This document shows, in pieces, positions 25,903 to 42,613 of a DNA stretch of 51,618 nucleotides. The position numbers and the translations under genes are program-made. The notes beneath the pieces were generated by a model, which had not been told where the DNA came from, ran no database searches, and saw nothing but the letters and a program-made list of their open reading frames with translations. This DNA is from Thermoprotei archaeon. GTDB lineage: Archaea; Thermoproteota; Thermoprotei; Thermofilales; B15-G2. Where the stretch lies: the NCBI GenBank assembly GCA_003649445.1, contig QMRV01000012.1, forward strand, positions 1-51,618. Direction: 5' to 3'. Each line of letters begins with the position of its first letter. Position 1 is the first letter of the stretch.

Positions 25903-25969
25903 GAACAGCCACATAAATATTTAAGTATTCTTCTCGAATTTTTAGGAACACTATCCAAAGGTGAGTCTC

Positions 25970-28390
25970 ATGAAATATAAGCCGCTAATTAAAGAGACTA
26001 GGCTTCCTGAGAATTTTGAAGAAGAACTTATAAGGAAATGGGAAGAAGAAAATATTTACGAGTTTCACGAAGACAGCGAAAAGCCTGTTTTCACTATAGA
26101 CACTCCTCCACCTTATACTAGTGGCCGCTGGCACTTGGGGGCGGCAGCTCACTACGCGCAAATAGATATGGTCGCTAGAGCTTACCGCATGCTGGGGTAT
26201 AATGTTCTAGTACCCTTCTATTGTGATAGAAATGGCTTACCTGTAGAAGTTCAGGTAGAGAAAAAGTACGGTATTAGAGCAAAAGATGTTCCACGAGAAG
26301 AATTTCTTAGACTTTGTAAAGAGTTCATCGATAAAGTAGAAGAAGAGTTAGTATACATAGTTAAGAGGATGGGCTTTAGTTTTCAGTACTGGCGTGATGG
26401 TACTGACAGCGAGAAGTACCGTACTTTAACCCAGCTTACTTTCATTGAGCTCTACAAGAGAGGGCTTATTTACGAAGACTTAAGGCCAAACAATTTCTGT
26501 ACTAGATGCAATACCACTCTAGCAGACGCCGAACTAGAATACAAGACTGTAGACGCATATCTCTATTACATTAAGTTCAAGGTCAAAGAAACGGGTGAAG
26601 ATATAATAATAGCTACAACAAGACCTGAGCTTCTTTGCACGTGTGCACTTGTGATATTTAATCCTGAAGACGAGCGATATAAGAGGCTGGAAGGCAAGCA
26701 CGCTATAGTTCCCATATTCGGTCAAGAAGTAGAGATAAGGGCGCATCCAGCTGCAAGACCAGAGTTCGGGACTGGACTTGTCATGATATGTTCTTTTGGA
26801 GACTTAACCGACGTAAGAATATTTAGAGAACTTGGTCTGAAGTACAAGATTGCGATTAATCCTGACGGAAAAATGAATGAGGTTGCAGGAAAATATGCGG
26901 GGCTCACTGTTAAAGAAGCCCGTGAAAAAATAGCGGAGGATCTTGAAAAAGAAAGTCTCTTAGTTGAAAAGAAGCCTATTAAGCATGAAATACCAGTATG
27001 CTGGCGCTGTGGGACTCCAATAGAGTTTATCGCTATGCCAGAATACTATCTTAAGCAGGTAGAATTCAAGGAAGAGTTATTGAAGCTAGCAGATCAAATG
27101 GTATTCTATCCTCCTGAAGCGAAAGAAATCTTAGTGAACTGGATAAAGAGTATTACTGCGGACTGGCCTATTTCAAGGAGACGGTACTATGGAACAGAAA
27201 TTCCCATATGGTACTGTAAAAAATGCGGGACTCCACATGTACCTGAGCCCGGAAAATACTATAGGCCTTGGGCAGAAAAAGCTCCATTTGAGAAGTGTAG
27301 CAAGTGTGGTTGCACAGAATTTGTAGGCGAAGAGAGAGTATTCGATACGTGGATGGATTCAAGTAATACGCCTCTCTATGTGTGTGGATACTACTATCGT
27401 AAAGACTTCTTCGAGAAAAACTATCCTTGTTCACTAAGACCTCAGGGAAAAGATATTGTCAGAACATGGCTCTACTACACTATGCTGAAATCATACTTAC
27501 TGACTGGTAAACCACCATTCAAGTATGTGAGAATAACTGGAATGGGTTTAGATGAGAAAGGAGAAAAAATGAGTAAGAGTAAAGGAAATATCATTGATCC
27601 AATACCTATAGTTGAAAAGTACGGTGCTGATGCAGTAAGATTCTGGAGCGCTGCTGAAGCCAAACTCGGAAGCGATTACCGCTATTCAGAACACCACGTT
27701 GCAACAGGACGAGCTTTTGTTGTAAAGCTATGGAATATCGCTAGATTTATATCACAGTTCCCTAAGTGCGAAAAACCAAGTAAAATTGTGCCATTAGACC
27801 TTATGATATTAGGTGAACTTAATAACTTAATAAGGAAATGTGTCGATGCTTACAAGGAAATGGATGTATTCTTGCCGGCTAATGAAATATACAGTTTCAC
27901 ATGGAAAGTATTCGCTGCACACTACATAGAAGCAGTTAAACAGAGAGCATATAACTTAGAAGGAATATTTAGTGAAGAAGAGCAGAAAAGCGCATGGTAT
28001 ACTCTGCACACAGTACTAGAAGCTATCCTAAAGTTGCTCGCCCCCATATGTCCATTCATAACTGACTACATTTGGCGAAAACTCTACAAAGAAACAAGCA
28101 TTCACATAGAATTATTCCCAGAGCCAGTTCCAGAACACGATACTGAGTACGTTAAAGCACTCGAACTTTTCATGGAGTTTAACAGCAGTATATGGAAATA
28201 CAAGAAAGATAAAGGCTTATCTCTCAAAGAGCCTCTACAGCTCACAGTGTATATGCCTAAAGAATTAGAGCCTTTCATAAAAGACTTAAAGGCAATGCAT
28301 AGAATCAAGGAGCTCAAAGTAGGAGTTCCGGAGAACAAAGACCTATTCGAGGTAATAGGACCCAATATGTACGTAGAAAAATCACAATAA
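25970..28390 (+). CDS. valS: Valyl-tRNA synthetase
   Basis: Class I synthetase of about 806 aa. The HIGH motif appears as PPPYTSGRWHLG, KMSKS as GEKMSKSKGN. The editing domain has IIATTRPELLCT and PEFGTGLVMICSFGDLTD; ITADWPISRRRYYGTEIPIW with zinc-type Cys pairs (CKKCG, CSKCGC) follows. PPPYTSGR also occurs in IleRS, but the GTG-x-VM-x-C-x-x-GD-x-TD segment and overall length fit the crenarchaeal ValRS type. ATG 25970 preferred to GTG 25961 because AGGTGA lies five bases before the ATG. No anticodon-side truncation is evident. Confidence 0.88.
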   Translation: MKYKPLIKETRLPENFEEELIRKWEEENIYEFHEDSEKPVFTIDTPPPYTSGRWHLGAAAHYAQIDMVARAYRMLGYNVLVPFYCDRNGLPVEVQVEKKYGIRAKDVPREEFLRLCKEFIDKVEEELVYIVKRMGFSFQYWRDGTDSEKYRTLTQLTFIELYKRGLIYEDLRPNNFCTRCNTTLADAELEYKTVDAYLYYIKFKVKETGEDIIIATTRPELLCTCALVIFNPEDERYKRLEGKHAIVPIFGQEVEIRAHPAARPEFGTGLVMICSFGDLTDVRIFRELGLKYKIAINPDGKMNEVAGKYAGLTVKEAREKIAEDLEKESLLVEKKPIKHEIPVCWRCGTPIEFIAMPEYYLKQVEFKEELLKLADQMVFYPPEAKEILVNWIKSITADWPISRRRYYGTEIPIWYCKKCGTPHVPEPGKYYRPWAEKAPFEKCSKCGCTEFVGEERVFDTWMDSSNTPLYVCGYYYRKDFFEKNYPCSLRPQGKDIVRTWLYYTMLKSYLLTGKPPFKYVRITGMGLDEKGEKMSKSKGNIIDPIPIVEKYGADAVRFWSAAEAKLGSDYRYSEHHVATGRAFVVKLWNIARFISQFPKCEKPSKIVPLDLMILGELNNLIRKCVDAYKEMDVFLPANEIYSFTWKVFAAHYIEAVKQRAYNLEGIFSEEEQKSAWYTLHTVLEAILKLLAPICPFITDYIWRKLYKETSIHIELFPEPVPEHDTEYVKALELFMEFNSSIWKYKKDKGLSLKEPLQLTVYMPKELEPFIKDLKAMHRIKELKVGVPENKDLFEVIGPNMYVEKSQ

Positions 28391-31765: not shown

Positions 31766-32128
31766 TTGTATAGCCTTGAGGAATTAAGACAAAAGAAAAA
31801 AGAATTAGAAGATCTAAAGAATGAATTAGAAAAAAATAGAAACGAAATTCTTGAAAAAATAAAGAAGCTTAAAGAAAAAGAGAGTAAGATTTTTGAGGAA
31901 ATGCGAAAAACGAGAGATTACATAAGGGCTAGTAGGCTTGAACTGTACTTAATGAAGATAAGCGATGAGAGGAAAAAACTTGAACAGAAGCTTGAAGAGA
32001 TTGAAAGAAAATTAAGAGGAGTTAACTCTGTTTTAGAGGATGTTGCTAGAAAAATAGAAATATTAAAGCCAAAAGAAGTAAAGTGGGTCGTTGAGTATTC
32101 TAAGGACTCTGAAAGCACTAAAGAGTAG
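31766..32128 (+). CDS. Coiled-coil protein, function unknown
   Basis: 120 aa, almost wholly a Lys/Glu-rich coiled coil with one break around MRKTRDYIRASRLELYLMKI, so a helical hairpin is likely. The C-terminus (KPKEVKWVVEYSKDSEST) is extended. It resembles a prefoldin-like hairpin in outline but lacks prefoldin signature residues. The start is TTG 31766, supported by a purine-rich GAGGGAGA just upstream. The tail overlaps the convergent deoxyhypusine synthase gene by 11 bases. Confidence 0.6.
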   Translation: MYSLEELRQKKKELEDLKNELEKNRNEILEKIKKLKEKESKIFEEMRKTRDYIRASRLELYLMKISDERKKLEQKLEEIERKLRGVNSVLEDVARKIEILKPKEVKWVVEYSKDSESTKE

Positions 32129-33155
32129 AGATAGATGAATTTATTATTTTTTGAGCATTCTGTTTTCTTAAGTTAAGCTTATTTTCGTTTACTATATCGT
32201 ATACTGCATAAAATATTAGCGGTAAAGTTATTGTGGCGTCGCTGTATATGAATGCTTTTTTAGATTGTGGCTTTATTTTATTCCAGCTTATAGCTTCACG
32301 GGGTCTCGCTCCACTAAGGCTGCCGTCCCATTCTACAGCTACAGTTAAATAAACTGCGTAGTCTAGTCCGTCTCTGAATTGGCTCCACCATATTAAGTGA
32401 TGTTTGCTTATTCCTCCTCCGACTATTATTCCTCCTAATTTATTAGCTATGAAAAATATGTTGGAAAGTTCTTTCATATCGATTGAGTAGTCTATTGATA
32501 TTATTTTTCCGCCCTTTAGTCTCTGTTTTTCATTAAATGTAATGATGTGTGTTCCAAATGCACTATCGTAAAAGCCTGGAACATAAATAGGTACTTTATT
32601 TAAGTAGGCACTACGAAGAATAGAGTTTTCGTCTGAAATTTGTTTGCCTATTTCCCAGAGCAGTTCTCTACAACTCCACTTTTCTTTAGTTTTTATTACT
32701 TTCTCTAAAAATGTATGTAATTTCTCTTCAATTAAGGGACCATAGCTTTCTTTAGGTACGAGAATATTGCCTAGACGATGTATTTCCTCTTCTCTTAGCA
32801 TCTCGTCGTCGATATCAAAACTTCCGCAGTAGTAGTTAGCATAGCTTTTTGCTATATCGTGGTCGATAGTTCCTCCAGTAGTAAATATAATATCTACCAT
32901 CTTATTTTTGATTAGGTCTGAAACAAGGCCTCTAATTCCGGTAGCTATAATATTTGCTGTAATCGACATAAGTACAAGACAATTTTCGTCTTCCAGCATT
33001 TCTGTTACTATACTGCACGCATCAGCTAGATGTGCTGCAGAAAAACCGCCTATGCTTTTAAAGGAGTCTATAAGGTCTTTAATTTTTGTATCTTTACGTA
33101 AGTGTAAGTCTTTAACAGGGGTCTTTAGCAGCTGGTCCCTAATACTGTTTCTCAT
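32118..33155 (-). CDS. dys: Deoxyhypusine synthase
   Basis: Transfers the aminobutyl group of spermidine to a lysine of aIF5A, the first step of hypusine formation and an archaeal/eukaryal hallmark. NAD-binding TTGGTIDHDIAKSY, GGGISKHHLIWW (GG-x-x-K-H-x-x) and EWDGSLSGARPREAISWNKI are visible; the last carries the catalytic lysine. 345 aa is usual. It follows the lysine-methyltransferase gene with a 2-base gap on the same strand, so both are probably one transcript. Confidence 0.95.
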   Translation of the reverse strand: MRNSIRDQLLKTPVKDLHLRKDTKIKDLIDSFKSIGGFSAAHLADACSIVTEMLEDENCLVLMSITANIIATGIRGLVSDLIKNKMVDIIFTTGGTIDHDIAKSYANYYCGSFDIDDEMLREEEIHRLGNILVPKESYGPLIEEKLHTFLEKVIKTKEKWSCRELLWEIGKQISDENSILRSAYLNKVPIYVPGFYDSAFGTHIITFNEKQRLKGGKIISIDYSIDMKELSNIFFIANKLGGIIVGGGISKHHLIWWSQFRDGLDYAVYLTVAVEWDGSLSGARPREAISWNKIKPQSKKAFIYSDATITLPLIFYAVYDIVNENKLNLRKQNAQKIINSSISTL

Positions 33156-33157
33156 AA

Positions 33158-33649
33158 CTATCTTCTTGAAAGTACTTCTTCCATTAGATATAAGTATACT
33201 TTATGGTTTCTCCAGTCTTCTTTAACTTCTTTCACTAAATGAGGCTTCCATCCGACGATCTCAAAATCATGTGAGACTATTCTAGCTGAAGGTTTTAATT
33301 CTTTAATAAACTTAGTTTTTAATTTTTCATTAACGCTTGTTAGAAGATATAGAGTAACTACATCTGCATCACTTATATCTACTTCAAAAAAGTTGCCATA
33401 AATTATTGTGACTCTATCCTCTAGTCCGAGTTCTTTTACTTTTCTTATGCACTGTTCTACTAAATCCTTACGTATTTCTATGCCGACTGCGTACGCTCCA
33501 AAGTCTTTTGCAGCAGTTATTATAATTCTGCCGTCTCCGCACCCTAAATCGTAAACAATTTCTCCGGGTTTTACTTTAGCTAATTCAAGCATTTTTCTAA
33601 CAACTATTTCTGGTGTAGGAACGAATGGCACTACTGGAGTATAGGACAT
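33158..33649 (-). CDS. Protein-lysine methyltransferase, aKMT4-like
   Basis: 163 aa SAM-dependent methyltransferase. SAM motif VYDLGCGDGRIIITAAKDFG at ~32-51; NFFEVDISDADVVTLYLLTS and VSHDFEIVGWKPHL match the crenarchaeal aKMT family, which methylates lysines on chromatin proteins such as Cren7 and many others. The N-terminus SYTPVVPFVPTPEIVV also fits. First gene of a pair with dys. ATG start 33647-33649. Confidence 0.85.
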   Translation of the reverse strand: MSYTPVVPFVPTPEIVVRKMLELAKVKPGEIVYDLGCGDGRIIITAAKDFGAYAVGIEIRKDLVEQCIRKVKELGLEDRVTIIYGNFFEVDISDADVVTLYLLTSVNEKLKTKFIKELKPSARIVSHDFEIVGWKPHLVKEVKEDWRNHKVYLYLMEEVLSRR

Positions 33650-33756
33650 TTTCTCTCAGTAGAGTCCTTAGTTCTCTCTAACATAATTTTTTCTGTTAGA
33701 GTATTGAAAATACTATCTATCGAAAGACTAATTTTTAGCTAAATCATTTTCTCAAT

Positions 33757-34275
33757 GTGGCTAAGTCATCTGATAGAAAATTAAAGACACTAGTGACAAT
33801 TATTGTTGTAGTACTGCTAGCTTACATTACTATAAACTACTTATTTAAAGCCATATTGTCGACAGAAATACCCTTAGCGGTAGTTTCAAGCTGGAGTATG
33901 ATACCCTCACTTCAAGTTGGAGACATGATAGTAATTGTAGGAGTTCAATCTTCCTCTGATCTTCAAGTAGGAAAAGTAATTGTATATAAGAGGAGTGCTG
34001 GAAGCGAGCCAACAGTTCATAGAATAATAAAAGTTTATGAAAGAGAAGGTAATGTTTACAAGCTAGTAACTAAAGGAGACGCTAATCTAATTCCAGACTA
34101 TCCTGTCTCAATAAGTCAAGTAAAGGGAATAGTGATGTTGGACGTACCTTATCTTGGAGTACTTAAACTGTTCGCCGAAAAATATCCTTATGTCTATGCT
34201 CTAGTAGTAATACTGCTACTCATTATGATAGTCTTTTCTCCAGAGGAGGAAAAGAAGTCTAAGAGTCGAAAGTGA
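33757..34275 (+). CDS. Signal peptidase I (archaeal/ER type)
   Basis: 172 aa membrane protease that removes Sec signal peptides. N-terminal membrane segment (~12-32), then catalytic Ser47 in SWSMIPSLQVGD, His88 in VHRIIKV replacing the bacterial Lys, and Asp108 in KGDAN, the archaeal/ER triad. A second membrane helix lies near the C-terminus (YALVVILLLIMIV) before a basic tail. Start GTG 33757, no ribosome site. Confidence 0.92.
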   Translation: MAKSSDRKLKTLVTIIVVVLLAYITINYLFKAILSTEIPLAVVSSWSMIPSLQVGDMIVIVGVQSSSDLQVGKVIVYKRSAGSEPTVHRIIKVYEREGNVYKLVTKGDANLIPDYPVSISQVKGIVMLDVPYLGVLKLFAEKYPYVYALVVILLLIMIVFSPEEEKKSKSRK

Positions 34276-34279
34276 CCGA

Positions 34280-34300
34280 TTAATATATATTTAAGCTTTT
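34280..34300 (+). promoter_or_regulatory. Promoter of the TBP gene
   Basis: ATTAATATATATTTAAGC at 34279-34296 is a strong TATA-like element about 27-35 bases before the TBP ATG at 34322. The spacing implies a start of transcription at or just before the ATG, a leaderless or nearly leaderless message. TTTTTAAAGG just downstream may be a second, weaker element. Confidence 0.5.
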
Positions 34301-34321
34301 TAAAGGTAGAACGGGAATATT

Positions 34322-34925
34322 ATGAGAAGAGTCGTTAGGTTCTCAGAACCAAGTTTCCGTATAGAAAACGTAGTTGCATCGGTTACTCTCGACCAACGGC
34401 TTGATTTAGAGTTAATCGCGTCGAGAGTACCTAACGCGGAGTATAATCCGGAACATCCCGAGGCTTAAAACCCTCGGGATCCGAGAGTTCCCTGGGCTAG
34501 TCCTGAGAATTAGTAGGCCTAAGACTGCGACTCTAATTTTCTCTAGCGGAAAAATGGTATGTACTGGAGCAAAGTCCGAAAACGAGGTATACAAGGCAGT
34601 TAAAAACATAATAAAGATTCTTAAGGAACATGGTATAGAAATAGTTAGCCAGCCCCAAATAAAAATACAGAATATAGTCGCAAGCGCGAATCTTCACGCT
34701 GAAGTCAACTTAGAAAAAGCAGCATTCTTACTTGAAAACTCCATGTATGAGCCTGAGCAATTCCCGGGACTAATCTATAGGATGGATGATCCTCGTGTAG
34801 TTATTCTAATTTTCTCTAGCGGAAAGTGTGTATGTACTGGAGCAAAGAAGGAAGAGGAAGTAGAAATAGCCATCAAGAAGCTGTATAATAAGCTTAAAGA
34901 ACTAGGAGTACTATATGTAACTTAG
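34322..34925 (+). CDS. tbp: TATA-box-binding protein, gene interrupted by a 31-base intron
   Basis: TBP is the essential archaeal transcription initiation factor. Exon 1 (34322-34454) encodes the start of repeat 1, ending EYNPE plus one base. Exon 2 (34486-34925) continues with the rest of a Gln codon, then [20 protein letters not shown] and all of repeat 2 ([14 protein letters not shown] ... [14 protein letters not shown] ... [16 protein letters not shown]). Joined exons give 190 aa, normal for TBP. Unspliced, translation stops at TAA 34466-34468 after 48 codons. EQF is restored at the junction and is matched by EQF in repeat 2. Exon 1 has its own promoter; exon 2 has an internal ATG at 34554 that would make only a truncated repeat. 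RimI-like gene follows 5 bases later. Confidence 0.93.
34455..34485 (+). other. Bulge-helix-bulge intron in the TBP gene (31 nt)
   Basis: Central helix CGGA (34449-34452) pairs with TCCG (34480-34483). The 5' bulge is ACA (34453-34455) and the 3' bulge is AGA (34484-34486). An 8-bp intron helix TCCCGAGG (34456-34463) pairs with CCTCGGGA (34472-34479), closed by an 8-nt loop. Archaeal EndA cuts each 3-nt bulge after its second base, which removes exactly 34455-34485. The joined sequence is GAA-CAG-TTC. The outer exon helix is weak (C34448-G34487, then mismatch), so this is a relaxed motif, of the kind the broad-specificity crenarchaeal EndA accepts. An in-frame TAA lies inside. Confidence 0.88.
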
Positions 34926-34930
34926 CGAAT

Positions 34931-35416
34931 ATGACAGAAAATAAGCAAGAATATATAATAAGAGAGTTCAGACCTGAAGACCTAGAAAGAGTTATCGAGA
35001 TTAACAGGAAATGCTTGCCCGAAAATTATCCTCCATACTTCTTCATGATGCAGTACTACAATTGTCCTAAAGCGTTCTTAGTAGCTGAAATGCATAATGA
35101 AATAGTAGGCTACATTATGTGTAGAGTAGAACATGGATTAAGTAATTTCGGAATAGGAGTAGCGAGAAAAGGACACATTGTGTCGATAGCTGTTATGCCT
35201 TACGCTAGAAGAAAAGGTATCGGTAAATCCTTAATGATAAAGGCTATGGAAAACCTTAAAAAGGAATACAATGTCGACGAATACTTTCTAGAAGTGAGAG
35301 TATCTAATAAGCCTGCTATCTCTCTGTATAAAAAACTAGGATATAAAATAGTTAAAGTGATTAAAGGCTATTACTTAGATGGAGAAGATGCCTACTTAAT
35401 GGCCAAAAAAGCATAA
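34931..35416 (+). CDS. GNAT N-acetyltransferase, RimI/Ard1-like
   Basis: 161 aa. Acetyl-CoA site IVSIAVMPYARRKGIGKSLMI (R-x-x-G-x-G/A form: RRKGIGKS), followed by YFLEVRVSNKPAISLYKKLGY and VIKGYYLDGEDAYLMAK. This is the pattern of archaeal Ard1/RimI N-terminal acetyltransferases, which modify nascent proteins with broad specificity. ATG 34931 is 5 bases after the TBP stop, suggesting shared transcription. Confidence 0.9.
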   Translation: MTENKQEYIIREFRPEDLERVIEINRKCLPENYPPYFFMMQYYNCPKAFLVAEMHNEIVGYIMCRVEHGLSNFGIGVARKGHIVSIAVMPYARRKGIGKSLMIKAMENLKKEYNVDEYFLEVRVSNKPAISLYKKLGYKIVKVIKGYYLDGEDAYLMAKKA

Positions 35417-35434
35417 TTCTACTGAATACTCTAG

Positions 35435-35785
35435 CTATTCACCAATAATTGTTGAGAGATATTCTGCAAGAAGCATTAAAATTATAGCCGCCAGAATATA
35501 GTGCTTTCCTCTACTAGGATTCCAGTGAGTAATCCATAATATTACGCCAACTACAGCTAGTATAATATAGATTGCTCTTACAACATTTATAATAAATTTC
35601 ATAACTCTATTGACTGCTAAGCATAGTATTCTTTCTATATCACTTAATATTTTATCAAATGTCTCTAGAAAATTTGTTGAAGGAATTATAGACTTATTTT
35701 CATTATTTTTTGGCTTACCTAAGACTACTATAGGTACAATAGATAGCGCAAGTAGTACTACCAGTAAAGCTTCTACTTTAGTCAT
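35435..35785 (-). CDS. Small secreted/membrane protein, VirB2/TrbC-pilin-like outline
   Basis: 116 aa. It has an N-terminal hydrophobic segment (VEALLVVLLALSIVPIVVLG) like a signal peptide, a polar stretch (~26-55), then two closely spaced membrane helices (RAIYIILAVVGVILWIT and YILAAIILMLLAEYLSTII) joined by a short basic loop HWNPSRGKH. This signal-plus-helical-hairpin layout with a positive turn is that of VirB2/TrbC conjugation pilins and of archaeal CedA1/TedC pilins. I see no sequence signature that proves it, and many small membrane proteins look similar. The 310-aa unknown gene lies upstream on the same strand. Confidence 0.45.
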   Translation of the reverse strand: MTKVEALLVVLLALSIVPIVVLGKPKNNENKSIIPSTNFLETFDKILSDIERILCLAVNRVMKFIINVVRAIYIILAVVGVILWITHWNPSRGKHYILAAIILMLLAEYLSTIIGE

Positions 35786-35836
35786 TTAGTCCCTTAGACT
35801 TGTTCCATAGAGCGTATATACTTAAATTCCTGTTTA

Positions 35837-36769
35837 TTAGTGGCACTTAATTGAGCGAAGGCTTGTATTGAAAAGATTTTCTATTTCCTTTAATTCTTTT
35901 TCTTTAATTCTAATTGATTCTTTTGAGACTACAGTAAAACACATGAGTCTATTGTTCTGATCGCAAACCCATAGGGAGAGGTAGCATTTTCGCTTTCTCG
36001 GACTAAATGGAACCTTAATGTTGTATGTGAAAATATCGATACTGTGATTGTTTAATTTAATACTTTCCTTTTTCTTTAAGTCTGATATTTTGCCGTACTT
36101 TTTGAAGCATTGCTTAAATACTCTTTTTTGGAACCATGTCTCTGTATCTTCTTCTTCAAGAAGAACTGAAGCCATACAGTTATAGGCGAGTAAAATTACT
36201 GTTTCTTTGTAATAAAACTTTAAGTAACTAAGTCCAGTAGTAGTTTTCTTTTCTATAGGCTTATATTCTTTTGGCAGTGTCAAAAAAATTCCTTGAAAAT
36301 ACCAAGGATATTTTTCTCCATCTAAATGACATTTAAAGCTTTTTAATACCTTAGATATGGTGTGCTTAGCTTTTTCAGACTCATCAATCTTGTATATGAA
36401 GTTTAGGAGAAATGCTCTTTCACTTTCATCGCAGTACCATCCTATACATTTGAGACAATAGTCTTTTGTTCTCATTATAGCTTCATAAGCTTTATGACTT
36501 AATGAAGAAAGATCTCCTTTGCTTATAACTTTTACATCTGTAAACTTTTCCTTAACAGTTTCAATAAATTTCTCTATAATATCTTTTGCTTCAGGAGCTT
36601 TATCAAACGGAATTTTTTCTGCCTTAAGTTCTAATCTACGCATTTTAATATCTTCAAACACTACATAATATACTTTTGAAGTAAACTCCTCTTTAGCTAT
36701 CTCCCATGAATAAGGTTTACTAAACACTATACCGCTCCACGCAAAAGTCTCCCAGCCTTCGGAAGCCAT
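35837..36769 (-). CDS. Uncharacterised protein with internal tandem duplication
   Basis: 310 aa, not recognised. Two halves (about 1-150 and 155-310) share a pattern. Each opens with a G-I-x(4-6)-P-x-x-Y/W stretch (WSGIVFSKPYSW; FQGIFLTLPKEYKP), each has a W-x-C-D core (CIGWYCDESERAFLLNFI; YLSLWVCDQNNRLMCFTV), and each ends S-x-KCH (KSFKCH; RSIKCH). No signal peptide or membrane helix. Several cysteines are paired between halves. No catalytic motif is obvious. It is probably a two-domain beta/alpha protein that arose by duplication. Confidence 0.65.
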   Translation of the reverse strand: MASEGWETFAWSGIVFSKPYSWEIAKEEFTSKVYYVVFEDIKMRRLELKAEKIPFDKAPEAKDIIEKFIETVKEKFTDVKVISKGDLSSLSHKAYEAIMRTKDYCLKCIGWYCDESERAFLLNFIYKIDESEKAKHTISKVLKSFKCHLDGEKYPWYFQGIFLTLPKEYKPIEKKTTTGLSYLKFYYKETVILLAYNCMASVLLEEEDTETWFQKRVFKQCFKKYGKISDLKKKESIKLNNHSIDIFTYNIKVPFSPRKRKCYLSLWVCDQNNRLMCFTVVSKESIRIKEKELKEIENLFNTSLRSIKCH

Positions 36770-36896
36770 ACATCAATTTAACTTGACATATAAAATAAAT
36801 CTTACCGTGGCATTCTAGGCAGTGGAGAGGGCTTTGTTGTTGTGTAAGTACTATTCTAGGAAAAAATAAAAAGGTATTAAAGTAACTAAAACTTAA

Positions 36897-37814
36897 ATGC
36901 GGTGCATTGTCTGTAAAAAACCTGCTGTAGTGAAAATAGATTACGCAGGAGTTAGCTTTTGCAGTGAACATTATGATAAACACTTTATGAAGAAAATAGA
37001 AAAAACTATTAGAGCATTTAAAATGCTTAAAAAGGGAGATGTTGTTTTAATAGGTGTTTCGGGAGGAAAAGATAGTATATCATTGCTACATGCATTATGG
37101 CGTCTCAAAGAAAAATTCAGTTATGAGGTAATATCATTGCACATCGATTTAGGCTTAGGAAAATACAGTGAAGTCTCTAGAAAAGTATGTGAAGAAGTAT
37201 GTTCTCGGCTAGGAGTTGATTTAATAATTGTAGACATAAAAAGAGAATATGGTATAACTTTACCTGAGCTCGCTAAGGTCTCTAATCGCCCTCCCTGCTC
37301 TATTTGCGGTACTATAAAGAGGTATATTATGTCATCTTATGCTGTGAAGTTAAAAGCTACTAAAATAGCTACTGGGCATAACCTAGTGGATGAAGCTATC
37401 TTCTTGTTATCCGCTTTAACTAGGTCAGATATACTTTCGTTGGCGAAAAGAAGTCCTTTCATATCTTCCTTAGGAAATCTTCCTCCAAAAATAAAACCGC
37501 TTTATCGAATGTATGAGTACGAAACACTAGCCTATGTTAAAGTACATAGATTACCCTATGTTGAAGAACAATGTCCCTATTCAGTAGGAGCTACTTCACT
37601 CAAAGTCAAAAGTCTAATAGAGCTCCTAGAAGCCATGTATCCAGGATCTGTACTGAACTTAGTTAAAAGCTGGTATAAGAATATTCAGCCAATTCTATGG
37701 GAGAAAATTTCTTCGGAAGTGCGTGTTAAAAAATGTAAGGTATGTGGTTTGCCTTCACAAGGTGAAGTCTGTAGTTTCTGCAGATTATTGGCTATGAAGG
37801 AAAAGACGGTATAG
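36897..37814 (+). CDS. tRNA 2-thiolation enzyme, TtuA/NcsA (Ncs6) family
   Basis: 305 aa. An N-terminal zinc site (C3, C6, C22, H25: MRCIVCKKPA ... FCSEHY) precedes a PP-loop SGGKDS at 55-60. PPCSICGTIKRY and the later EQCPYS-type segment supply the [4Fe-4S] cysteines, TGHNLVDEA is the family T-G-H-N-x-D-D/E-x-A motif, and the C-terminal CKVCGLPSQGEVCSFC is a second zinc site. This layout is diagnostic for TtuA/Ncs6, which thiolates tRNA uridine (54 or 34). The start is ATG 36897; its tail overlaps the convergent lipid kinase gene by 23 bases. Confidence 0.92.
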   Translation: MRCIVCKKPAVVKIDYAGVSFCSEHYDKHFMKKIEKTIRAFKMLKKGDVVLIGVSGGKDSISLLHALWRLKEKFSYEVISLHIDLGLGKYSEVSRKVCEEVCSRLGVDLIIVDIKREYGITLPELAKVSNRPPCSICGTIKRYIMSSYAVKLKATKIATGHNLVDEAIFLLSALTRSDILSLAKRSPFISSLGNLPPKIKPLYRMYEYETLAYVKVHRLPYVEEQCPYSVGATSLKVKSLIELLEAMYPGSVLNLVKSWYKNIQPILWEKISSEVRVKKCKVCGLPSQGEVCSFCRLLAMKEKTV

Positions 37815-41084: not shown

Positions 41085-42613
41085 ACTTCCTCACCACGCA
41101 TCGAGCGAAGCTGCTCACGGTACTCCAAGTAGTCTACAATTTTCCTGAGAGTTCTTTCAGTTCTCGCTAACTTACTTTCAATGACATTTACTCTTCCTTC
41201 GAGAACTTCAATTAAGCTGAATATTCTCTCAAAGCTAGAAGAATTAGCAGCAACGCGGCGCTCTATTCGCTCTATTCGTTCGGCTAAAACTCTTAGCTGC
41301 TCGCTAAAAGCATTAAGGCTTTTTCCCATATTTTCAGATTTAGTGAATTCGGTGCTTTTAGCAGGTTGACTTTTAATTAAATTAGACGAAGTGGAAGTAT
41401 TGCAAAAATTAGGCTTAGGCTCTTCACTAGAAGCAGTGTCTTGAACAAGGTTCTCTGCAGGTACTGCATTATCTACAAAATTTCTCGCAATAACTACTGA
41501 AAGATTGTTTACTTGGATTCTAGGAAACTTGTATTTGATTAATCGACTACCTGAAATCAAATATGCCTCAAATACTTTCAGAGAGTCTACATCAATATTC
41601 TCTTTTCCTAATTTTTTAGAAAATAAAGGTAGTCTATGAATTATAAAAGTGTGCGTATTTTCAAGTACCGTAGGTGCTATAAGCTCAGGACTCTGTGCTA
41701 TTGAAATCAATATTTCTCCATATTTTCTCAATTCAATATACATTCTTTCTCCAACTGAAGGAGGGTCTTCTAGCCTTCGGGGAGGGATTATATTGGAAGC
41801 TTCCTCGATAATGGTAATATGTCTTGTACTATAAGAGGGACCTTTTCGCATTAAATAATTATACAAAGTCTTTAATATAATTAATGCAACCAATTTTCTT
41901 AAGTATATACTTTTAAATACACTTAAATCTATTATAAAATTTCCAGAAAGTATTTTTTCAAAGTCAATATCTTTGGACAACATTAAGCCAAGTCTTCCCT
42001 CGGATAACGGCTTTAGTCTTCTTAATATAGCTAATTTTATTTCATTCTCCTTAATACTTTTAATTTGATAATTTTCAACAGATTTTATAAGATTATATAT
42101 ATTTTGTTCTTGTTTATTAATTATAATATTTTTCAGTGCTTCATATAAAATATATCGCTGAGGGTCAGTAAGATAGAAAACTTCACTTATTATATCTATA
42201 ATTAAATTTATCTCGTCAACAGTATTTTTACTTCTAATCTTTATAGGATTAATAAAAAAGTTAATACCAGGAATAAGTACCTTAAATCCATTTAATCCGA
42301 CATGTTCTCCATGCCAATCTAATATAAGCACAGGATATTTCTTTGAAATTTTTAATGCAAGTAGTCGTGCAGTATTACTTTTACCGCTACCACTAGAGCC
42401 GAGTATACATATGTGTTTAGATAAATCTATCGTAAAAAACGGAATTACTGATACAATAAAGTAGCGGCCTACTAGTGACCACTTAAACACTTTATTTAAA
42501 AGCAAGACTATAATCACGCAAAAAGCGACTGCTAAAGTACAGTAAATTACGCAAGGTATATCGGATGCTATTGATGTTATGTTCGGCAACGAAGAGTATT
42601 GAATATTCATCAA
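41081..42613 (-). CDS. Membrane-anchored HerA/VirB4-type ATPase, CedB-like
   Basis: 510 aa. One or two N-terminal membrane segments (~20-40 IPCVIYCTLAVAFCVIIVLL; possibly 50-61) precede Walker A GSSGSGKS at 72-79, VLILDWHGEHVG (motif typical of HerA-like ATPases), and Walker B HITIIEEASN near 265 followed by an IAQSPELIAPTVLENTHTFI stretch. After residue ~390 comes a Ser/Pro/Asn-rich linker and then a coiled coil (~430-505, RIERIERRVAANSSSFERIF). A membrane-tethered HerA ring is the layout of CedB, the DNA-import motor of Crenarchaeota. Partner of the overlapping XPD-like helicase. Identity as CedB is inference. Confidence 0.75.
   Translation of the reverse strand: MMNIQYSSLPNITSIASDIPCVIYCTLAVAFCVIIVLLLNKVFKWSLVGRYFIVSVIPFFTIDLSKHICILGSSGSGKSNTARLLALKISKKYPVLILDWHGEHVGLNGFKVLIPGINFFINPIKIRSKNTVDEINLIIDIISEVFYLTDPQRYILYEALKNIIINKQEQNIYNLIKSVENYQIKSIKENEIKLAILRRLKPLSEGRLGLMLSKDIDFEKILSGNFIIDLSVFKSIYLRKLVALIILKTLYNYLMRKGPSYSTRHITIIEEASNIIPPRRLEDPPSVGERMYIELRKYGEILISIAQSPELIAPTVLENTHTFIIHRLPLFSKKLGKENIDVDSLKVFEAYLISGSRLIKYKFPRIQVNNLSVVIARNFVDNAVPAENLVQDTASSEEPKPNFCNTSTSSNLIKSQPAKSTEFTKSENMGKSLNAFSEQLRVLAERIERIERRVAANSSSFERIFSLIEVLEGRVNVIESKLARTERTLRKIVDYLEYREQLRSMRGEEV

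Follow-up and report, generated by a model that had tools for sequence, protein, structure and literature searches.

Can a TATA-binding protein (TBP) be produced from a tbp gene whose reading frame is interrupted within the first repeat of the protein, and by what route? This question is raised by a locus in the window, the whole stretch of 51,618 nucleotides of archaeal DNA analysed here. An earlier interpretation of this DNA (the sequence-only reading) had claimed that a bulge-helix-bulge (BHB) intron splits the gene, and the claim held up: the same site was interrupted in 19 genes, with covarying helices and frozen exon codons. From sequence comparison, we infer with high confidence a pre-mRNA BHB intron, together with its cleavage by EndA, exon ligation by RtcB, and the dependence on both that would follow.

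Gene structure of the split tbp

Exon 1 (34322..34454, + strand) encoded residues 1-44 and the first base of the Gln-45 codon, and exon 2 (34486..34925, +) included the stop codon; both were assigned from the joined frame, and exon 1 was conserved in relatives. The intron between them (34455..34485, +), delimited by excision and by comparison with relatives, was 31 nt long, in phase 1, frame-shifting, and contained an in-frame TAA. The sequence around it reads CCG GAA C / ATCCCGAGGCTTAAAACCCTCGGGATCCGAG / AG TTC CCT. The 34 bases with an in-frame TAA that had been proposed to lie between GAA and TTC were thus present, and removal of the 31 bases at 34455-34485 gave E-Q-F, as predicted, in a single 190-aa TBP frame without an internal stop (233.5 bits against Pfam TBP). 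The solved structure best matched by the sequence of the joined product was the TATA-binding protein 1mp9_A (E 7.1e-74), a Sulfolobus protein. The unspliced frame, on the other hand, reached a TAA stop after 48 codons. The junction was located in the Gln codon of P-E-Q-F-P-G, directly before a Phe that is presumably one of the DNA-kinking phenylalanines of the yeast TBP literature. Since 34455 and 34486 are both A, the alternative excision of 34456-34486 yields an identical mRNA; the product alone therefore leaves the cut unfixed, and it is the bulge rule that fixes it.

BHB structure of the intron

The central helix consisted of the exon strand CGGA (34449..34452, +; from the covariation alignment and a geometry scan) and the intron strand TCCG (34480..34483, +; covariation). 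The inner helix was formed by TCCCGAGG (34456..34463, +), all eight pairs of which changed on both sides among 20 introns, and CCTCGGGA (34472..34479, +; covariation). The 5' bulge ACA (34453..34455, +) and 3' bulge AGA (34484..34486, +), both taken from the intron alignment, have predicted cuts after 34454 and 34485, respectively, according to the rule for bulge borders in section 8 of PMC2738675. The coordinates, sequence, CGGA/TCCG helix, ACA and AGA bulges, and 8-bp inner helix all agreed with the sequence-only reading. The four central positions were paired in 20/20 introns (one with G-U), between two 3-nt bulges; the 5' bulge was ACA in 19/20 (ACG in G015), and the 3' bulge was AGA in 15, AAA in 3, and ATA in 2. 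The outer helix, on which the sequence-only reading is silent, was a single invariant C-G pair flanking the 3' bulge, short of a strict outer exon-exon helix. Because it has only this one outer pair, the structure is a relaxed BHB, a form counted within the archaeal BHB intron family in the relevant part of PMC6379350.

A scan of both strands of the window gave 2 sites with BHB-like geometry, versus 17 in 40 shuffled windows. Since such geometry is by itself not rare at this scale, a single sequence would be no more than suggestive. A chance hairpin in tbp was excluded by its position precisely at the frame break, recurrence in 18 other genomes, and covariation. The second BHB-like site (41524-41579) lay within an opposite-strand ORF, and the shuffles indicated that chance suffices for it. 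Searched against Rfam, the window gave no match at gathering thresholds and no group I/II catalytic core; a group I or II intron was rejected on this ground and because neither type would fit into 31 nt. Assignment to the cbf5 intron family was also rejected, as the gene is tbp.

Distribution among relatives

A contig scan of named genomes gave 80 tbp loci. At locus L071 (Thermoproteales archaeon AUK141), an insert of 29 nt occupied the same position; its inner stem differed but was again self-complementary. The order of this genome, to which G001 belongs, was represented by 27 genomes, 24 of which had a TBP match: 14 split at the site and 10 unsplit. In the class, 75 of 81 genomes gave a tbp match, and 18/75 were interrupted at the same codon, including a second intron-bearing group of four genomes, G035-G038. 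The alignment of relatives suggested in the sequence-only reading thus revealed the intron at the same site in some genomes and its absence from others. Excision was examined in 42 genes (G004 and L010 being one genome), 19 of which had the intron; in all 19 (18 relatives and the window), the motif was present and the TBP frame was intact after excision. The excision script was keyed to the motif and hence blind to unlike introns, and the split genes had first been found by protein matches.

The 19 genes contained 20 introns, because G038 carried two. Their lengths were 26, 27, 28, 29, and 31 nt, and every one of them shifted the frame or contained a stop; the two 27-nt introns kept the frame but carried TAG. 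The second intron of G038 (locus L116; 27 nt) lay in repeat 2 of TBP, at the codon homologous to that of the first intron, had the form CGGA-ACA-stem-TCCG-AAA with exon codons CCG GAA CAG, and its excision restored E-Q-F. The introns of G035-G038 all started with AG, and that of the window (ATCCC...GGGATCCGAG) was closer to the commonest Thermofilum-Infirmifilum type than to these.

A motif search in 398 genomes of the phylum gave matches in 17, within tbp in 14 (15 places), which rejected a dispersed element; a reversed-pattern control matched in 10 genomes. The three other matches were in G045, G258, and G282; that of G045 was on a different contig from its tbp, and that of G258 was judged by eye to be outside tbp. 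Because the introns of G015 and G035 deviate from it at fixed positions, both escaped the pattern, which therefore undercounts. Among the matches listed for 161 genomes of the phylum (152 with a match), tbp was split at the site only in G001, G024, G026, and G029, all already in the set. Other breaks in tbp (G049, G053, G054, G057, and G058; L117-L121) were rejected as introns, being one-base frameshifts. These were at several different places and were probably sequencing errors.

Covariation, codon usage, and selection

In the 20 aligned introns, BHB pairs were formed in 236/236 cells, and 9/12 pairs changed on both sides (8/8 inner and 1/4 central). The covariation score was 0.563 versus a shuffled mean of 0.224 (0/500 as high), and fell to at most 0.139 when the alignment was slid by 1-3 columns. 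Two introns (that of G037 and the first of G038) had A-U in place of G-C at the central pair 20-52, where a synonymous position of the exon meets a base of the intron: Pro CCA for CCG and intron TCTG for TCCG. G035 had CGGG/TCCG with a G-U pair.

The codons at the intron site (n=20) were CCG GAA CAG in 17, CCA GAA CAG in 2, and CCG GGA CAG in 1. CCG GAA CAG was found at 0/22 uninterrupted first-repeat sites, which are a subset, as many as 38 more genomes of the class having an uninterrupted gene, and at 0/40 uninterrupted second-repeat sites. The Fisher p value for intron versus uninterrupted sites was 4.5e-9, which is overstated since the genes are related. In six gene pairs, pN was 0.00-0.05 versus a pS of 0.58-0.95 in both exons; both are under purifying selection.

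Folding energetics

Folded at 37 C within 83 nt of sequence, the transcript had as its minimum-energy structure an exon-exon helix, GGAAC/GUUCC, and not the BHB (z -2.03; 7/200 shuffles folded equally well). At 80 C, the BHB core was the minimum-energy fold in 17/20 introns in a short context, while all four central pairs had a probability > 0.5 in just 1/20 with 24-nt flanks. In longer contexts the BHB was not the preferred fold, which counts against the structure. The competing exon-exon helix was paired in 98% of cells, but 0 of its pairs changed on both sides, and it was broken in the G037 intron and the first G038 intron. The structural case rests on covariation, not on energy.

Splicing machinery

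The endonuclease domain PF01974 was detected over the cut-off in 27/27 genomes of the order; the 14 intron-bearing ones had two matches in 9 and one in 5. RtcB was detected in 24/27 genomes and in 13/14 intron-bearing ones; it was not found in G006, G008, and G027 of these 27, of which G027 is intron-bearing. Genome incompleteness is the likely reason both for the missing RtcB of G027 and for the single endonuclease match in 5/14. The survey covered the 27 genomes of the order, with G035-G038 and the genome of the window outside it. Two-subunit (alpha-beta)2 endonucleases cut relaxed BHBs, according to passages in PMC6379350.

The following route may be proposed. The tbp pre-mRNA would fold such that exon CGGA pairs with intron UCCG between two 3-nt bulges, EndA would cut both bulges between their second and third bases, and RtcB would join the exons into an mRNA for normal TBP. 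As the unspliced message can be read for just 48 codons before a stop, the supply of TBP, and hence the initiation of transcription, would depend on tRNA-splicing enzymes.

Alternative explanations

The interrupted frame may also be explained by direct use of the unspliced mRNA, in which translation starting within or upstream of exon 2 would give a C-terminal TBP fragment, alone or beside the spliced form. Databases do list such forms: the TBPs of Infirmifilum sp. NZ, I. lucidum, I. uzonense, and T. pendens (query: the joined TBP of a relative) were 141-153 aa, and among 24 listed proteins with at least 85% identity to an intron-bearing TBP, 22 (138-153 aa forms) were without exon 1. However, a protein of this form would be without about half of repeat 1, while exon 1 is under purifying selection and the codons at its end are frozen in a form that suits the BHB, which makes this explanation very unlikely. 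The intron itself explains the exon-1-less database TBPs of Infirmifilum and Thermofilum. The two listed proteins with exon 1 (P0021 and P0017) were full-length, found in ENA only on contigs of 1394 and 1867 bases, and 92% identical to those of G024 and G011, respectively; they could be from spliced cDNA or intronless alleles. Four other predicted TBPs (P0001, P0002, P0241, and P0245; 272-289 aa) appeared by eye to have three TBP repeats, not two. Translational bypassing, for which phage T4 gene 60 is the precedent, would let the ribosome hop over the hairpin, and a hop from GAA to GAG is formally possible, because a stable hairpin follows GAA and GAG precedes TTC at the intron end. Nevertheless, the hop would give P-E-F and drop a Gln that every uninterrupted site encodes (22 in the first repeat, 40 in the second), and exon-intron covariation would be needless for it; we consider bypassing extremely unlikely.

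The gene may instead be broken, as a pseudogene or through sequence error, with TBP made elsewhere. The five genomes of the class with one-base tbp frameshifts resembling sequence errors give this some footing, and the count of tbp copies covers relatives, with the window's own genome outside it. Against this, the same site, structure, and frame repair were found in 19 genes, both exons were under purifying selection in the six pairs tested, and no second intact tbp was detected in G035-G038 or in the order, where each of the 14 genomes with the intron had only the two pieces of the split gene as TBP matches. The probability of a broken gene is therefore close to negligible. An assembly error and a second intact tbp had both been named in the sequence-only reading as grounds for abandoning the intron: the former is very unlikely, as the intron recurs in 18 other genomes, whereas the latter is weakened by its absence from intron-bearing relatives rather than removed, because some genomes are incomplete (G018 has only 0.7 Mb). 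In G029, by contrast, contig 1 alone covers ~1.60 Mb of a genome given as 1.6 Mb.

Intron history

The closest TBP found (96% identical), that of G006, was without the intron. Its neighbourhood was collinear with the window, with aligned stretches within 31988-37092. The pS values between the two were 0.95 and 0.79, near saturation at synonymous sites, and so the genome of the window and G006 are not close strains. The TBP tree required at least 3 changes of intron presence/absence, and a single clade of all intron genes was rejected on it (p-AU 1.8e-5; the group was named after the tree had been seen). Intron history was read from the TBP tree alone, because valyl-tRNA synthetase (ValRS) and a class II tRNA synthetase were unusable owing to paralogues. 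The intron may have been gained once long ago and lost several times, gained repeatedly, or transferred. It is conceivable, albeit doubtful, that the intron is mobile at a hot spot, being inserted repeatedly at the same codon (including repeat 2 of G038) by reverse splicing or gene conversion; TBP synthesis would then have come repeatedly under the control of the tRNA-splicing endonuclease, and the competing folds could make TBP output respond to temperature or to the level of the enzyme.

The ValRS-like gene of the window (25961-28390) had a split distribution: matches of at least 60% were found in G004, G006, G007, G009, G014, G035, G037, G038, and G052, and the match in G036 was in two pieces, while the best matches were 39-42% in 19 other genomes and 33% in G012. 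G006 carried both ValRS types. This distribution suggests gene replacement.

Comparison with known BHB introns

A pre-mRNA intron in cbf5 was reportedly described by Watanabe in 2002. Yokobori 2009 (PMC2738675) places it, in the sections concerned, in Sulfolobales and Desulfurococcales, with a gain in their common ancestor; its table gives 0 for the Thermofilum cbf5 intron, its account provides a precedent for border placement and lineage loss, and it notes predicted introns in other genes, for which its sources are a book chapter and a paper on a rudivirus. The sequence-only reading had regarded protein-coding archaeal introns as rare, with cbf5 as the established case, and this agrees with a passage in PMC7714728, which names cbf5 mRNA as the only such additional archaeal BHB intron reported by 2020. 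Searches of full-text literature, with subscription papers mostly outside coverage, gave no report of a tbp intron among the matches listed, and no paper was found that brought together an intron and the TATA-binding protein in archaea or in Thermofilum; the portions seen of PMC3189178, PMC4673724, PMC4090602, PMC13149111, PMC12397907, and PMC3218864 make no mention of one. The tbp intron is likely new to the literature.

On the comparative evidence, the tbp intron very probably joins the rare cbf5-type pre-mRNA introns, as a conserved member in the gene for a general transcription factor that would be spliced by EndA/RtcB. If so, mRNA splicing by tRNA enzymes is more than a one-gene oddity, and transcription initiation is tied to tRNA processing; presence and absence among relatives and the repeat-2 copy offer a tractable case for intron gain and loss in archaea. 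The tbp intron differs from that of cbf5 in its gene and site, and in its occurrence also at the homologous codon of a second repeat (G038). With the BHB introns of pre-tRNA and pre-rRNA it shares the central 4-bp helix, two 3-nt bulges, and putative EndA/RtcB route, but the 5' half of its central helix is mRNA coding sequence and thus codon-constrained. It also resembles another known mRNA substrate of the endonuclease; however, that site is in a 5' UTR, whereas the tbp intron is inside the reading frame.
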